From Betaproteobacteria bacterium (GTDB taxonomy: Bacteria; Pseudomonadota; Gammaproteobacteria; Burkholderiales; Rhodocyclaceae): a stretch of DNA of 6,856 nucleotides. How positions within the stretch are numbered: the first letter of the stretch is position 1; each line of letters starts with the position of its first letter. Under the pieces are notes generated by a model. It ran no database searches. It saw only the letters and a program-made list of their open reading frames with translations, and was not told where the DNA came from. Below are positions 1-6,856 of the stretch, piece by piece. The stretch is taken from NCBI GenBank assembly GCA_028065725.1, contig JAPTVL010000514.1, positions 1 to 6,856 of the forward strand. The letters run 5' to 3'. The translations under genes were made by a program, and so were the position numbers.

Positions 1-96
1 GGCATCGACATGGATGCGGTCGGCAATACCCTGCAGGACGATGGCGTCAACCTGTTTGAAGCCTCCTACCAGAAGCTTCTGGCGCAGCTGTCCTGA
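1..96 (+). CDS. tal: Transaldolase, C-terminal end (5' truncated by window)
   Basis: Only the last 31 codons and the TGA stop are in the window. The visible peptide begins GIDMDAVGNTLQDDGVNLF and ends in YQKLLAQLS. This matches the C-terminal pattern I associate with transaldolases of the longer bacterial/actinobacterial type: G-I-D-hydrophobic-x-x-V, then L-x-x-x-G-V-x-x-F, then a terminal amphipathic helix with K-L-L. Transaldolase moves a dihydroxyacetone unit between sugar phosphates in the non-oxidative pentose phosphate pathway, in the cytoplasm. The catalytic lysine and the barrel lie outside the window, so the name rests on a short tail and is probable rather than certain. The gene is co-directional with the ThDP enzyme downstream, but the 166 bp gap with hairpins argues against a tight operon. 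Confidence 0.65.
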   Translation, partial: GIDMDAVGNTLQDDGVNLFEASYQKLLAQLS

Positions 97-262: not shown

Positions 263-1927
263 ATGAATATTTCCGTCAGCGAACTGATCGTCCGGTATCT
301 GGAACGCCTGGGCATCGATACCATCTTCGGCATGCCGGGCGCGCATGTGCTGCCGATCTACGACCGGCTGCATGACTCCAGCGTGAAGAGCGTGCTGGTC
401 AAGCACGAGCAGGGCGCGGCCTTCATGGCGGGCGGCTACGCGCGGGTGTCGCACCGGCCCTCCGCCTGCATCGCCACCGCCGGTCCGGGCGCGACCAATC
501 TCATCACCGGGATTGCCAATGCCTACGCCGAACGGCTTCCGGTGCTGGCGATCACCGGCGAAACCTCCACCTATATCTTCGGCAAGGGCGGCCTGCAGGA
601 AAGCTCGGGCGAAGGCGGCGCCATCGACCAGGGCGCGCTGTTCGCCAGCATCACCCGCTATCGCAAGCTGGTCGAACGCACCGACTATCTCGGCCAGGTG
701 CTGAACCAGTCCACGCAGGCGCTGCTCGGCCGCGAGCCGGGGCCGGTGCTGCTGTCGATCCCCTACAACGTGCAGAAGGAGCCGGTCGACGCGGCCGTGC
801 TCGAGCAGATTCATTTCCCGCGCAAGGCGGCACTCAGGCACACGGCATCGGTCGCCGCGTTCGCCGGGCTGGTCCGTGATGCGCACGCCCCGGCGATTGT
901 CGCCGGCCATGGCTGCATCCAGGCGGGCGCACGCGATGGGGTCGCCGCGTTCGCGGAACGCTTCAATATCCCGGTCACCACAAGCCTCAAGGCCAAGGGC
1001 GTGGTGGCCGAGGGCACGCCCCTTTCGCTCGGCTGCCTCGGCGTCACCTCCAACGGCGATGCGTATCGCTATCTTGCAGACCATGCAGATCTGCTGATCT
1101 TTCTCGGCGCCGGCTTCAACGAACGCACCAGCTATCTGTGGGACGCGAAACTGCTGAAAAACAAGAAAATCGTCCAGGTCGACCTCGACTCCACACAGCT
1201 CGGCCGCGTGTACCACGCGGACGTGGCGATTTGCGGCGACATCCGGGGCGTGATGGAAGAGGTATTCGCCACGCTTGATAACGAAGGCATGGCGCCGAAG
1301 AATCTGGATCATCTCGTCGACCACCGTACAGTCGACATGCCGCCAGCGGACCATGAAGCAGCTGCGCAACGGGAGGCGTTCCACCTGATCCAGCGCTTCT
1401 TCAGCACGCTTGCCCAGCGCTTTCCGCACAACGCGCAGGTCTTCGACGACAACATCGTCTTCGCGCAGAGCTGGTTCGACGTCTCCGACCGCAACCACTA
1501 CTTCCCGAACTCCGGTATCTCGTCGCTCGGGCACGCGATCCCGGCCGCGATTGGTGCGCGGTGCTTTGCCAAGGACAGCCCCACCTTCGCCATCCTCGGC
1601 GACGGCGGCTTCCAGATGTGCTGCATGGAAATGATGACGGCAGTGAACTACGGCATTCCGCTCAATGTGGTGGTGATCAACAACGGCACGCTGAGCCTGA
1701 TCCGCAAGAACCAGTTCCAGCTTTACGGCGAACGCTACATCGACTGTGATTTCGCCAATCCCGACTTCGGCCTGCTCGCACAGTCCTTCGGCGTGGCGCA
1801 TTACCGCGTCGAAACCGAGGCCGACCTCGATGCGATGTTTGCGCGTGCCGATCTAACCGGTGCGATCAACCTCATCGAAATCCTGCTCGACAAACATGCC
1901 TTCCCGCTCTACCTGTCGGCTCGCTAG
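263..1927 (+). CDS. ThDP-dependent enzyme, acetolactate-synthase superfamily
   Basis: A 554-residue thiamine-diphosphate enzyme with the usual three-domain order. The PYR domain (about 1-170) has the cofactor-activating glutamate E49 in HEQGA and the GPGATN loop at 74-79. A central Rossmann-like domain follows (about 190-330). The PP domain (about 380-535) has the ThDP/Mg motif GDG at 446-448 with paired asparagines N473-N474. Such enzymes decarboxylate 2-keto acids, often pyruvate, and join the resulting two-carbon unit to an acceptor. The ATG at 263 is chosen because MNISVSELIVRYLERLG is the normal family N-terminus; the frame is open further upstream but that part is not family-like. The ribosome-binding site is weak. 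Against true acetolactate synthase: no small regulatory subunit gene is adjacent, there is extra sequence around residues 107-124 (GKGGLQESSGEGG), and the position usually Trp in the LGMVRQWQ-type motif is Asn (N483 in LSLIRKNQ). Likely a specialised carboligase or decarboxylase; substrate unknown. First gene of a three-gene overlapping operon. Confidence 0.85.
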   Translation: MNISVSELIVRYLERLGIDTIFGMPGAHVLPIYDRLHDSSVKSVLVKHEQGAAFMAGGYARVSHRPSACIATAGPGATNLITGIANAYAERLPVLAITGETSTYIFGKGGLQESSGEGGAIDQGALFASITRYRKLVERTDYLGQVLNQSTQALLGREPGPVLLSIPYNVQKEPVDAAVLEQIHFPRKAALRHTASVAAFAGLVRDAHAPAIVAGHGCIQAGARDGVAAFAERFNIPVTTSLKAKGVVAEGTPLSLGCLGVTSNGDAYRYLADHADLLIFLGAGFNERTSYLWDAKLLKNKKIVQVDLDSTQLGRVYHADVAICGDIRGVMEEVFATLDNEGMAPKNLDHLVDHRTVDMPPADHEAAAQREAFHLIQRFFSTLAQRFPHNAQVFDDNIVFAQSWFDVSDRNHYFPNSGISSLGHAIPAAIGARCFAKDSPTFAILGDGGFQMCCMEMMTAVNYGIPLNVVVINNGTLSLIRKNQFQLYGERYIDCDFANPDFGLLAQSFGVAHYRVETEADLDAMFARADLTGAINLIEILLDKHAFPLYLSAR

Positions 1928-3653
1928 TCCCGACGAGCAGATCGCGGCGCAGCACGCCGCCATTGCCCGATTCGAAGCCGCGCTGTGGGACGGCGGCTTC
2001 AACGAGTCGCTGCTGCCGTCCTATCAATCGGCCTGGCGGCGCCTGGAATCGCTGATCGCCGCGCGCGGGGCGGATAACCGTCACCATTTCATCCTTGTCA
2101 TTCCGGTCGCCGACAGCCCGCAGCAGCTGCAGGCCTGCCTCGACAGTCTGATCGAGCTCTGCACGCTGTACGGCTACGGCGGCCAGCGCGACGGCCGCTG
2201 GCAAAAGGTGTCGGTGATGATCGCCGACGATTCGCAGGACCCCGCATGCATCGCTGCGCATCGGCGCATCGCGTGCGCATTCGAGGCGCGCGGCCTTGCC
2301 ACGCAGGTCTTCGGGCTCGACGAACAGCGCGCGCTGCTGGCCACGCTGTCCGATACCCTCGACCTGTCACGCATCGTCGGCACCCCTCGCCCCGAAGCCT
2401 TCGGCCACAAGGGCCAGGCCATCATGCGCAACATCGCCTGGCTGAAGCTTGCGCAGATGCAGGCTGCCGATACGTCCCGACTTTTTTACACGCTGGACGC
2501 CGACCAGACCTTCCAGGTGAAGGTCGCCACCGCCGACGGCGACCGCGACGTCTACGCAGTGAATTTTCTAGCCCAGCTCGACGCCCTCTTCAACGCGACC
2601 GATGCCGAGGTGCTGACCGGCAAGGTCGTCGGAGACCCGCCGGTTTCGCCCGCGGTGATGGCCGGCAACTTCCTCGAGGACGTGACCGGCTTCCTGCACG
2701 ACATCGCCGGCTGCGATCCACAGGAAGCCTACTGGCAGCCCGCGCCGAGCACGCAGGGATCGGGGGAAGCCGCGTATCACGACATGGCCGGGCTGTTCGG
2801 CTTCCTGCAGGCCGATGCCCCCTATCGCTACCGTTGCACCCTGGACGGCAGCCCCGCCAATGCCGCGTGTTTCGACGCGTTTTCGCAGCACCTGAACCGC
2901 TTCTTCCACGGCGAACATCCCACCCGCGTCATCGGGTACCGGCATGCGGACGCCATGCACAGCGTGCAGCCCGCGCGCACGGTCTACACTGGCAACGCCG
3001 TGTTCCGCGCCTCGGCCCTGCACTGGTTCATTCCCTTCGCCCCGTTGCGCCTGCGCATGTCCGGACCCACGCTCGGCCGCCTGCTGAAGGCCGAACTCGG
3101 CACGCGCTTCGTCTCGGCCAATCTGCCCATGCTGCACAAGCGTACGGTCGATGCCACGGGACAATCGGAATTCCGGCCCGGCGTGGTGGCGGAACGCGAA
3201 CGCATCGATCTGTGCGACGAATTCGAACGGCAGTTTCATGGCGACGTGATGCTGTTTTCCATCGAGCGACTGACCGGTCAGGGTTTCCCGCAGCACGCCA
3301 TCGCCCCGGAGCAGATCGCCGCCACGCTGGAAAGCGTGCAGGCCGACATGCTGGAAAAATACCGCGCCAGGCGCAAAGCCATCCTGGAAAAACTTGGCCC
3401 GTTGCACACGCTACTGAGCGACCCGAAGGCCTGGTGGAACCATGCCGACGCGCTGGCCGGCGCGCGTGCGAACTTTCACGCGTTTGCCGACAATCTCGAG
3501 CATAACTTCGGCGCGGATTCAGCCTGCCATGCGCGCATCGAATCAGCCGCCGCCCGCGCGGCCTGGCGCTCCCGCCAGCTCGACGCCATCGTCCACTATC
3601 ACGCCGACCGGCTCGCCTGGGACGATGCGCTGGCCGCGCTGATGCAGCCATGA
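1896..3653 (+). CDS. Putative glycosyltransferase (GT-A / GT2-like)
   Basis: A 585-residue cytosolic protein with no signal peptide or clear membrane segment. Features point to a GT-A nucleotide-sugar transferase: a first strand FILVIPVAD (65-73) followed by a C-L-D-S-L helix, an acidic pair in IADDSQD (D111-D112) where GT2 enzymes hold the nucleotide, and a DxD-type metal motif D201-A-D203 in FYTLDADQTF. Further on are TGNAVFR (365-371) and a conserved-looking basic block RLRMSGPTLGRLLK (385-398) that may contact the acceptor. The C-terminal part (about 470-585) is helical and charged (YRARRKAILEKLG). I do not recognise a named subfamily, so the donor and acceptor are unknown. The start is uncertain. 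ATG 1896 overlaps the upstream gene by 32 nt, GTG 1860 is also in frame, and neither has a good Shine-Dalgarno; the first 10-15 residues (PSRSTCRLA) look like out-of-frame coding. The stop overlaps the next start as ATGA, so translation is probably coupled. Confidence 0.6.
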   Translation: MPSRSTCRLASPDEQIAAQHAAIARFEAALWDGGFNESLLPSYQSAWRRLESLIAARGADNRHHFILVIPVADSPQQLQACLDSLIELCTLYGYGGQRDGRWQKVSVMIADDSQDPACIAAHRRIACAFEARGLATQVFGLDEQRALLATLSDTLDLSRIVGTPRPEAFGHKGQAIMRNIAWLKLAQMQAADTSRLFYTLDADQTFQVKVATADGDRDVYAVNFLAQLDALFNATDAEVLTGKVVGDPPVSPAVMAGNFLEDVTGFLHDIAGCDPQEAYWQPAPSTQGSGEAAYHDMAGLFGFLQADAPYRYRCTLDGSPANAACFDAFSQHLNRFFHGEHPTRVIGYRHADAMHSVQPARTVYTGNAVFRASALHWFIPFAPLRLRMSGPTLGRLLKAELGTRFVSANLPMLHKRTVDATGQSEFRPGVVAERERIDLCDEFERQFHGDVMLFSIERLTGQGFPQHAIAPEQIAATLESVQADMLEKYRARRKAILEKLGPLHTLLSDPKAWWNHADALAGARANFHAFADNLEHNFGADSACHARIESAAARAAWRSRQLDAIVHYHADRLAWDDALAALMQP

Positions 3654-4978
3654 TCGAACGCCTGCGGCACGCGCTGCACCGCAGGCGCTATCCGCTGCGG
3701 TATGCGCATCTCACCCAGTTGCTGAAAAACCAGGCGCTCGACCGTGCGCACCTGCTCGCCAGACAGCAGCAGGACCTGGCCGACCTCGTCGCCTTCGCTG
3801 CGGCCCACACGCCCTATTACGCCGACACGCTCGGCACGCTGCTCGACGCAGGCAAACCCATCGCCATCGGCGAGCTGCCCATCCTGAAAAAGGACGACGT
3901 CCTCCGGCGCCTCGACGACCTGCTGGCCGACACCGCCGACCGCAGCCAGGCGAAGCTCGGCCATACCGGCGGCTCGACCGGCAAGCCGCTCGCCTTCTGG
4001 TACGACGACGCCAAGCACGAACTGATGCGTGGCGGCATGATGCGCAGCTATATGCTGTCGGGCTGGCGGCCGGGACAGAAAATCCTCAACTTCTGGGGCG
4101 CACGGCAGGACGTCGCCCCCGGTGGCGTATTCGGCACCCAACTCGATGATCTCATCGCGGCCGAGCACACCATCGCCGCCTACGAATACACCGAGGACAC
4201 GCTCGTCGAATGGGCGCGCTTCATCCAGCGCTACCGGCCCGTGCTGCTGCAGGGCTACGCTTCGGTGCTGGCGGATGTCGCGCGGGTGGCGATCGACAAC
4301 CGGCTGTCCATGCCGAAGACCCTGCTCGGCGTGTACTCCACCGCCGAAATGCTCGACCCCAGTCAGCGCCAACGCATGCAGCAGGCTTTCGGCTGCAAGG
4401 TGTTCAACCAGTACGGCAGCCGTGAAATTCCCAACATCGCCTGCGAATGCCGGCTCGGCAACATGCACGTCTTCACCGACATGGTGTACCTCGAATCGGT
4501 GAAGACAGACGACGAAGACCGGCTGCTGGTCACTTCGCTGACCAACCGGCTGATGCCGATGATCCGCTATGACATCGGCGATGCCGGCCGGCTGCTGGAA
4601 GGAAGCTGCGACTGCGGCCTGCCGTTTCCGTTGATGGAAATGGATCTGTGCCGGCAGAACGACCTCATCCGCACACGTAGCGGCAAGACCGTCCATCCGT
4701 CCTATTTCAACCGCCTGCTGTACGGGCAGACGCAGATCCGGCAATACCAGTGGGTGCAGCGCGACTACGACCGGATCGTCCTGAACCTGGTCGCCGCGCA
4801 GCCGCTGAGCAGCCAAACGCGGGCGTCGCTGGAAGCCGACATCCGCCGCAATGTGGATGCGCAGATGGTGCTGGAGGTGAACACCCTGGATGACATCCCC
4901 CGCTCGCTTTCCGGGAAGCACCGGTTTGTGATCGGGATGCCTGACGATCCAGTCGACCTCCAGGCCAGCTGGACATGA
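3650..4978 (+). CDS. Adenylate-forming ligase, PaaK/CapK (phenylacetate-CoA ligase-like) family
   Basis: A 442-residue member of the ANL (acyl-adenylating) superfamily, of the shorter PaaK/CapK/coenzyme-F390-synthetase type. The motifs occur in order: the phosphate-binding loop T106-GGSTGKP-113, the Y255-GSRE-259 adenine/Mg motif, R306-YDIGD-311 before the hinge, and a C-terminal SGK423HR containing the lysine expected to catalyse adenylation. All key positions are present, so it should be active. Two CxC pairs (C265/C267 in ACEC and C320/C322 in CDC) could bind a metal, as seen in relatives. Family members activate aryl or acyl acids with ATP, making an acyl-AMP and often an acyl-CoA; CapK relatives sit in polysaccharide gene clusters. 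Here the context is a ThDP carboligase and a putative glycosyltransferase, which suggests activation or transfer of an acyl group onto a glycoconjugate (inference). The ATG lies within the preceding TGA (ATGA), arguing for translational coupling. Length is about normal for the family (roughly 430-450). Confidence 0.8.
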   Translation: MIERLRHALHRRRYPLRYAHLTQLLKNQALDRAHLLARQQQDLADLVAFAAAHTPYYADTLGTLLDAGKPIAIGELPILKKDDVLRRLDDLLADTADRSQAKLGHTGGSTGKPLAFWYDDAKHELMRGGMMRSYMLSGWRPGQKILNFWGARQDVAPGGVFGTQLDDLIAAEHTIAAYEYTEDTLVEWARFIQRYRPVLLQGYASVLADVARVAIDNRLSMPKTLLGVYSTAEMLDPSQRQRMQQAFGCKVFNQYGSREIPNIACECRLGNMHVFTDMVYLESVKTDDEDRLLVTSLTNRLMPMIRYDIGDAGRLLEGSCDCGLPFPLMEMDLCRQNDLIRTRSGKTVHPSYFNRLLYGQTQIRQYQWVQRDYDRIVLNLVAAQPLSSQTRASLEADIRRNVDAQMVLEVNTLDDIPRSLSGKHRFVIGMPDDPVDLQASWT

Positions 4979-5799: not shown

Positions 5800-5832
5800 G
5801 AGCCACTCTCGGCTGATTTGATTTCGATCGTC

Positions 5833-6348
5833 ATGATTTCAGTGCTCAACCGCTTGTCGACCGTCTGGATCGGACTTGTTGCCCTCGTTGCTTTGACAGG
5901 CCCGGCCTGCGCAGCACCGCTTACACTGGACGAACTGCTGGCGCGCCCGGTGGCACCCGCAGGAGTGGTGTTCGAAATCGTCGACCGCGATGCGGGCGCA
6001 CTGGAGGTCTCGCTGCCCTGGGTGAAGCAGGCTGCGCAACGCCTGAAGGCCCGCCACCCCGGCCTGCCGATGGCGCTGGTGACGCATGGCCAGGAAATGT
6101 TTGCCCTGCAGACCGGAAAACGTGCGGATAACCAGGCAATCCACCAGATTGCGGAAAGCCTCAGCCGCGACGACGGCATTCCGGTGCACGTCTGCGAAAC
6201 CTACGCCGGGTGGCGCGGGGTGGCGGCCGAAGATTTTCCCGCCTATGTCGACGTGGCGCCCGCCGGTCCGGCGCAGATTCGCAACTACGAAGCGCTCGAC
6301 TATGTGCGGCTGGTGGTGCCACGGGCGGCCGTGCTGAAGTCGCGCTGA
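5833..6348 (+). CDS. Secreted DsrE/DsrF-like protein
   Basis: A 171-residue protein with a Sec signal peptide: R7 in the n-region, a hydrophobic core about 11-22, and probable cleavage after ACA27. The mature part resembles the DsrE/DsrF-like fold: VVFEIVD as first strand, ALVTHGQEMFAL (the V-x-H-G strand-loop), a helix with NQAIHQIAESL, then IPVHVCETYAG with the conserved cysteine C121, and a final strand ALDYVRLVVP. C121 is the only cysteine of the mature protein. Cytoplasmic DsrE-family proteins carry sulfur on a cysteine; the exported relatives are poorly understood and often annotated as intracellular sulfur oxidation proteins, so a periplasmic sulfur or redox role is inference. The start is uncertain: ATG 5833 gives the best signal peptide, while TTG 5818 and GTG 5842 are in frame, and no clear Shine-Dalgarno is present. 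It may be cotranscribed with folE 33 bp upstream. Confidence 0.7.
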   Translation: MISVLNRLSTVWIGLVALVALTGPACAAPLTLDELLARPVAPAGVVFEIVDRDAGALEVSLPWVKQAAQRLKARHPGLPMALVTHGQEMFALQTGKRADNQAIHQIAESLSRDDGIPVHVCETYAGWRGVAAEDFPAYVDVAPAGPAQIRNYEALDYVRLVVPRAAVLKSR

Positions 6349-6420: not shown

Positions 6421-6856
6421 TCAGAACGCCGTCCACTCGTCTCGTCCGCCTCCGGCCACCACGCGCTTCGTCGGCCGCTCGACCAGCGCCAGCGTGGGCT
6501 CGATGCCCTTCAGGGTATTCATGCCCTTCAGGGTATTCATGCCCGGAGAGACACTCGGCCTCGCCGCAACCCTGTCGCTCGACACCGGAAGCTCACGTGC
6601 ACTGCAGGCGCCGCCGTCCAGCCTGAACACGCTCACCGCCTCGGCCAGCTTGCCGGCCTGGTTCTGCAGGCTCTCGGAGGCCGCCGCGGCTTCTTCGACC
6701 AGCGCAGCGTTCTGCTGGGTCACGTCATCCATCTGCGTGATGGCCTGATTGATCTGCTCGATGCCGGCGCTCTGCTCCTGGCTCGCCGCTGCGATCTCGC
6801 TCATGATGTCGGTGACGCGCTTGACCGAGCTGACGATCTCGTCCATGGTCTTGCCG
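6421..6856 (-). CDS. Methyl-accepting chemotaxis protein, C-terminal part (5' end beyond window)
   Basis: The frame runs leftward from the right edge to a stop at 6421-6423, giving about 145 residues. The peptide begins GKTMDEIVSSVKRVTDIMSE and continues through IAAASQEQSAGIEQINQAI and MDDVTQQNAALVEEAAAASE. This is the C-terminal coiled-coil arm of the MCP signalling domain just past its cytoplasmic tip, including the second methylation helix (QQNAALVEEAAAASESL). Receptor dimers in the inner membrane control CheA through CheW. After the helix comes a flexible tail of about 70 residues containing a duplicated MNTLKG, ending in DEWTAF. That ending resembles the acidic-W-x-x-F pentapeptide that tethers CheR/CheB, so this receptor may recruit its own adaptation enzymes. 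The ligand domain, membrane segments and start are not in the window. It converges on the DsrE-like gene with 72 bp between the stops, where I see no clear terminator. Confidence 0.92.
   Translation of the reverse strand, partial: GKTMDEIVSSVKRVTDIMSEIAAASQEQSAGIEQINQAITQMDDVTQQNAALVEEAAAASESLQNQAGKLAEAVSVFRLDGGACSARELPVSSDRVAARPSVSPGMNTLKGMNTLKGIEPTLALVERPTKRVVAGGGRDEWTAF
6503..6544. repeat. 18-bp tandem duplication inside the chemoreceptor tail
   Basis: ATGCCCTTCAGGGTATTC occurs exactly twice in tandem (6503-6520 and 6521-6538) and is followed by the first six bases of a third unit (6539-6544). On the coding (minus) strand it gives MNTLKG twice, in frame, in the linker between the MCP coiled coil and the DEWTAF tail. 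Perfect identity suggests a recent slippage duplication. Confidence 0.9.

Follow-up and report, generated by a model that had tools for sequence, protein, structure and literature searches.

A conserved gene pair for a ThDP-dependent enzyme and a probable glycosyltransferase, with an apparently interchangeable third enzyme, in sulfur-oxidizing Proteobacteria

We analysed a 6,856-nt stretch of DNA from a betaproteobacterium of the Rhodocyclaceae (contig JAPTVL010000514.1, referred to below as the window) and focused on its three-gene operon. The genes encode a thiamine diphosphate (ThDP)-dependent enzyme, a GT-A-fold protein that is probably a glycosyltransferase (GT) and an adenylate-forming enzyme of the PaaK/CapK-like kind (CapK-like protein). 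A preliminary description of this DNA had reported three genes on the same strand, overlapping by 32 nt and by an ATGA, and this layout was found at the same positions (Table 1). The proposed start of the ThDP gene, ATG 263, corresponds to a methionine at the same site in all 17 alignment rows (homologue starts being derived from tblastn matches), and the GT start, ATG 1896, agrees with the MPS or MSS that opens 22 of 23 aligned homologues.

Table 1. Genes and gene junctions of the operon (window coordinates)
Feature	Coordinates	Strand	Remarks
ThDP-dependent carboligase/decarboxylase gene	263..1927	+	554 aa; acetolactate-synthase superfamily, own subfamily
GT-A-fold protein, probable glycosyltransferase (GT)	1896..3653	+	585 aa
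ThDP/GT overlap, 32 nt	1896..1927	+	exact in 48/80
Adenylate-forming (PaaK/CapK-like) enzyme gene	3650..4978	+	442 aa; ATGA junction with GT, 4 nt

GTDB species genomes were scanned with a pattern built from the GT alignment, which returned 255 encoding stretches; all locus counts given here refer to the best 80 of these 255. A ThDP homologue adjoins the GT gene in 79 of the 80 loci, and in the single exception (L063, from Venteria, genome G014) the ThDP gene lies elsewhere in the genome. The CapK-like gene was detected in 52 loci, in 50 of which it lies less than 400 nt from the GT gene; with the window included, 51 of 53 detected CapK-like genes start less than 400 nt from the end of the GT gene. 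The exact 32-nt overlap, counted over the 79 loci carrying both genes plus the window, recurs often enough to be regarded as a maintained arrangement. Among the other 32 junctions, the GT gene starts 8-166 nt past the ThDP stop in 24 (start codons at non-overlapping junctions being picked by rule), the overlap has a different length in four and the junction is unreadable in four. The trio thus recurs in distant genomes, which bears out the earlier proposal that the three genes belong together: they are conserved neighbours, neither confined to this genome nor found with unrelated partners.

Wherever the host group is named below the phylum, the hosts are Beta- or Gammaproteobacteria, i.e. Thiobacillus, Hydrogenophilales, Rhodocyclaceae, Gallionellaceae, Sulfurisoma, Sulfuricella, Sulfuriferula, Thiodiazotropha, tubeworm endosymbionts, Venteria and others; some host records are labelled only as Pseudomonadota, proteobacterium or bacterium. 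A few homologue records bear the labels Thermoplasmatota, Hyphomicrobiaceae or Actinomycetota and presumably come from misbinned assemblies. Plasmid carriage was considered and rejected, as 72,556 plasmid records gave no match.

The ThDP protein contains the Pfam domains PF02776, PF00205 and PF02775. Its nearest relative in the PDB is BbmA (8x3x, profile E 6.5e-108), for whose function no paper was located in our literature search. The catalytic Glu and the GDG..NN motif are present, with Glu49 conserved in 83/83, D447 in 87/87 and N474 in 86/86 rows having letters at the site. It shares these features and the full-length three-domain organisation with acetolactate synthase (ALS) and BbmA-type enzymes, and differs from them in forming a subfamily of its own, with Asn483 and FNER, paired with a GT. 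A simpler explanation would be an ordinary ALS, serving branched-chain amino acids or acetoin beside incidental neighbours, and the top NCBIfam match is indeed an ALS family (TIGR00118, 355 bits). However, this score lies below the curated cut-off of 538.35 bits; the nearly invariant N483 aligns with a Trp in the plant ALS chain 3e9y (Leu in 7u25 and Gly484 in BbmA occupy the same column); FNER is invariant in the family where ALS has FDDR; and the ThDP gene is strictly paired with the GT gene. We give this explanation next to no credence, and an ordinary ALS was ruled out on the sub-cut-off score and the aligned residues.

Searches of the GT sequence against Pfam, NCBIfam and PDB sequences gave no match, which places the protein outside the sequence families of these collections; the sole PDB row obtained with the GT profile (E 0.26) is a chance match, and no credible sequence-level relative was retained. 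The predicted structure has a GT-A fold, and the DxD motif (D201 and D203) is conserved in 92/92 rows (91 distinct), so that we consider the protein a probable glycosyltransferase. It shares the fold, the DxD motif and a helical C-terminal part with GT-A enzymes of the MtdL, WrtF and mannosyl-3-phosphoglycerate synthase kind, and differs from solved GT-A chains by the lack of detectable sequence similarity, by extra N-terminal helices and by its long helical C-terminus. As separate observations, a 763-aa metagenomic homologue of the GT (P0074) carries a DUF924 domain (PF06041), perhaps as a fusion, and genome G012 contains the GT twice. Short GT remnants with internal stops occur in G233 and G255, both carrying dsrA, suggesting that some lineages have lost the gene. 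A GT-CapK fusion, suggested by open frames of 1010 and 1005 aa in G091 and G156, was discarded because loci L082 and L081 show separate genes.

The CapK-like protein resembles the PaaK-like chain 9s3l (profile E 5.3e-33) and scores 97 bits against NF045666, whose cut-off is 300; the other seven NCBIfam rows are likewise below theirs. TGGSTG, which we take to be the phosphate loop of PaaK/CapK enzymes, was found in 55/55 rows, and the lysine of GKHR (K423), presumably their catalytic C-terminal Lys, in 54/54 rows with letters. Both motifs, together with similarity across most of the length, are shared with the PaaK/CapK ligases 9s3l and 4r1l, from which the protein is set apart by scores under every listed NCBIfam cut-off and by its ThDP and GT context. 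All three enzyme classes named in the preliminary description were thus upheld, by Pfam for the ThDP protein, by predicted structure for the GT and by PDB and NCBIfam similarity for the CapK-like protein. Judging from their sequences, the ThDP and CapK-like proteins look like working enzymes with a specificity of their own.

In other loci, the CapK-like gene is substituted by a gene encoding a 176-aa protein with a sulfotransferase (ST) fold. Its GRCGS motif, assumed to be the 5'-phosphosulfate-binding (5'-PSB) loop near the N-terminus, and R77 and S85, taken as the 3'-phosphate Arg..Ser pair eight residues apart, are invariant in 15/15 rows (14 distinct, one locus being present twice). No family match was obtained for the three proteins searched against Pfam or the two searched against NCBIfam. 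The ST differs from the activating sulfotransferases of CurM and olefin synthase (4gbm, 4gox) in being a stand-alone protein of this small size without such a match, and no polyketide synthase was noticed beside its gene. In CurM and olefin synthases, according to PMC3903477, sulfonation of a hydroxyl activates it for decarboxylative release; given this precedent, activation rather than decoration is a serious possibility for the third step of the operon.

Near the ST gene, on the opposite strand, class-I methyltransferase-like genes were noted in L101 (7045-7725), L102 (6707-7462) and L103 (6981-7652). Methyltransferase-like genes, as family 18, occur also in L059, L064, L073, L075 and L076, mostly adjoining the ST gene and 3 kb off in L076; PF13578 was typed in L073 and L075, the rest being assigned by family or by eye. 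Such a gene may represent a further pathway step.

A whole-genome search for both third enzymes was carried out in 18 GT+ genomes. Seven had only CapK (G001, G006, G009, G358, G361, G362 and G418), ten only ST (G010, G013, G014, G015, G017, G234, G277, G335, G364 and G419), one neither (G359) and none both. CapK presence was defined as a match above 400 bits, matches of 140-230 bits being treated as other PaaK-like paralogues. The third gene was foreknown from the locus in six genomes (G001, G009, G015, G017, G277 and G335); the 12 whose outcome was open beforehand gave five CapK, six ST and one neither. CapK is also present in a 19th genome, G417, which the ST search did not include. Over the 54 genomes that it covered, the ST search found the gene absent from 27/27 CapK+ and 7/7 GT- genomes and present in 16 of the 20 other GT+ genomes (six of the 16 foreknown); the four without it were G205, G218, G307 and G359, the CapK search covering only the last. 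Several of these CapK and ST genes show no linkage to the GT gene, and operon position therefore does not account for the exclusion.

On a GT tree of 92 rows (91 distinct), 90 of which were labelled by local or genome-level presence of a third gene, the CapK/ST state switches at least five times, a rough figure because this quick tree has long branches and 25 open forks. The swap crosses taxonomic groups: G010 and G364, in the G018 family with Thiobacillus, carry ST, and G009, in the order of G017, carries CapK. From these sequence comparisons, the ThDP and GT genes appear as the stable core, with a third step for which an adenylating and a sulfonating enzyme can replace each other.

The host range ties the operon to Dsr/Apr sulfur oxidation. 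Association with dsrA was assessed in three groups (the G011 family, the G017 order and the G018 family) and with aprA in the first two. Among the 159 genomes of the family of G011 (Sulfurisoma), 11 carry GT, 33 dsrA and 29 aprA, and GT is restricted to genomes having both dsrA and aprA (11/11; 6.7e-9 for dsrA and 1.2e-9 for aprA, without kinship correction); the association with dsrA is strong in this family, the one group where such a restriction could be well tested. The ThDP gene (E 1e-100) was found in 0/22 dsrA+ GT- genomes of this family, vs 4/4 GT+ genomes. The GT gene lies 2-7 kb from aprA in six of the 11 (G034, G044, G054, G091, G098 and G130) and 16 kb from dsrA in G038; the remaining four have these genes on separate contigs. 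The order of G017 (170 genomes) comprises 52 genomes with GT, 154 with dsrA (E 1e-40) and 146 with aprA (E 1e-50); four of the 52 GT matches (G233, G255, G294 and G329) are relic or marginal and were excluded from the test, which used 48. In the G018 family (82 genomes), 73 carry GT and 77 dsrA.

Part of the hosts also show physical linkage to aprBA-sat. aprA lies within the fetched stretch in seven of the 80 loci (L025, L027, L029, L035, L047, L053 and L068), three of which were taken as the same as G054, G098 and G044. A CxxCxxCC (PF03692) gene occurs in nine of the 80, i.e. these seven plus L058 and L063, and several loci have a cbbQ homologue (PF08406) with its VWA-type neighbour upstream of ThDP. 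The PF03692 gene was seen between the trio and aprA in L035, L053, L068, L085 and L089-L092; cbbQ/cbbO-like genes were seen upstream of ThDP in L035, L053, L068, L085 and L090-L092, and not in L089.

We hold, with middling confidence, that the operon is a dedicated pathway to a small soluble glycosylated metabolite of Dsr/Apr sulfur-oxidizing Proteobacteria, which may help its hosts live on sulfur. Several points weigh against this. Four GT+ genomes of the G017 order (G217, G308, G313 and G323, all dsrA+) have no aprA at E 1e-50, and one (G195, aprA+) has no dsrA; the dsrA-GT association is weak in this order (p 0.03) because dsrA is present in 154/170 genomes. In the G018 family, 4/73 GT+ genomes have no dsrA at E 1e-40 (G346, G347, G399 and G403). 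Some of these exceptions may be incomplete bins. Linkage to apr concerns a minority of loci, one GT+ genome (G359) carries neither third enzyme and three others have no ST, the GT class is assigned by fold only, in a model of medium confidence, and the pathway is known from its genes, with product and activities predicted. Finally, 22 dsrA+ genomes of the G011 family have no operon, which is therefore not needed for Dsr as such and is accessory rather than core.

Some of these points would suit hitch-hiking, in which genes located in lithotrophy islands would be passed on along with dsr and apr, with no function in common: only 11/33 dsrA+ genomes of the G011 family carry GT, the association statistics include no kinship correction, the apr linkage is local, and nine GT+ genomes in the two other groups have no dsrA or no aprA. 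This explanation is nevertheless decidedly improbable, given that the ThDP-GT pair is retained even when unlinked (G014), that the third step has been replaced, with at least five changes on the quick tree, and that apr linkage occurs in more than one group (L025, from G008, and L029, from G010, belong to the G018 family, the others to the G011 family).

The preliminary description had suggested a link to surface-glycan, exosortase or lipid genes, the ThDP enzyme branching a nucleotide keto-sugar by a two-carbon unit in the manner of YerE, for transfer by the GT and acylation by the CapK-like enzyme. The enzyme classes are compatible with such a decoration, capsule clusters contain CapK-like ligases, and a sulfotransferase could stand in for acylation. 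The neighbour survey covered about 30 recurrent families, with one member each and mostly named by eye (family 3, made of antisense shadow ORFs, was ignored), and among them no surface-glycan, exosortase or lipid gene was recognised, nor any polymerase, flippase, export or nucleotide keto-sugar family; likewise, no nucleotide keto-sugar gene was recognised by eye beside the ThDP gene in the annotated part of its neighbours. Sulfur lithotrophy recurs instead, and the gene distribution follows sulfur oxidation. The suggested link did not find support, surface-glycan neighbourhoods were set aside, and glycan decoration, which is not supported, seems unlikely.

Further neighbours were noted. One nucleotide-sugar dehydrogenase-like ORF was named by eye in L089. 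A domain search identified folE downstream of the trio, with a tblastn match in 3/80 loci (L002, L014 and L019; several loci end early), and folE was not counted in the gene set. TRAP-transporter-like genes (by eye; families 73, 29, 30 and 20) lie between the CapK-like gene and folE in L014 (9245-12825) and L019 (4320-7856). In the window, frame 1 of positions 1-96 (+) holds the end of the upstream gene, presumably a transaldolase C-terminus by its resemblance. A 176-aa ORF at 5818-6348 (+), without match in Pfam or NCBIfam (family 12), recurs near the trio in Thiobacillus-type loci (L002, L006, L007, L008, L014 and L019). At 6503-6543, two tandem copies of the 18-nt unit ATGCCCTTCAGGGTATTC lie within a minus-strand ORF that is chemotaxis receptor-like by eye.

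In the dedicated pathway that we favour, the ThDP enzyme, judging from its family and conserved catalytic residues, would decarboxylate a 2-keto acid and couple the activated aldehyde with a carbonyl acceptor to form a hydroxy-ketone or hydroxy-acid scaffold. The GT-A enzyme, from its fold and DxD motif, would then move a sugar from a nucleotide sugar to this scaffold. Folds and motifs point to a third step in which the carboxylate of the product would be activated or capped by ATP-dependent adenylation in the lineage studied here, and a hydroxyl sulfonated from 3'-phosphoadenosine 5'-phosphosulfate (PAPS) in others, so that the molecule would carry, or pass through, an acyl-adenylate-activated or sulfonated form.

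Adenylation of the OleC type and sulfonation of the olefin-synthase type are alternative activations in hydrocarbon pathways. That the product is a dedicated cofactor or carrier of low molecular weight in the cytoplasmic Dsr/Apr route of chemolithotrophs, with its last-step activation likewise solved in two unrelated ways, is rather unlikely. It is improbable that the product is a compatible solute, the GT making a small glycoside similar to mannosyl- or glucosyl-glycerate with its charge coming from an acyl or sulfo group.

No earlier description of the operon was found in the accessible portions of the open-access literature, PMC5099947 included, and the biosynthetic pathway is apparently undescribed so far. 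It would be conserved over two proteobacterial sulfur-oxidizing groups, from Thiobacillus to the symbionts of tubeworms and clams, and the swap between an adenylating enzyme and a sulfotransferase offers a clean natural experiment on how pathways evolve. A metabolite pathway whose occurrence follows dsr and apr in chemotrophs would open the question of such small molecules to direct testing.

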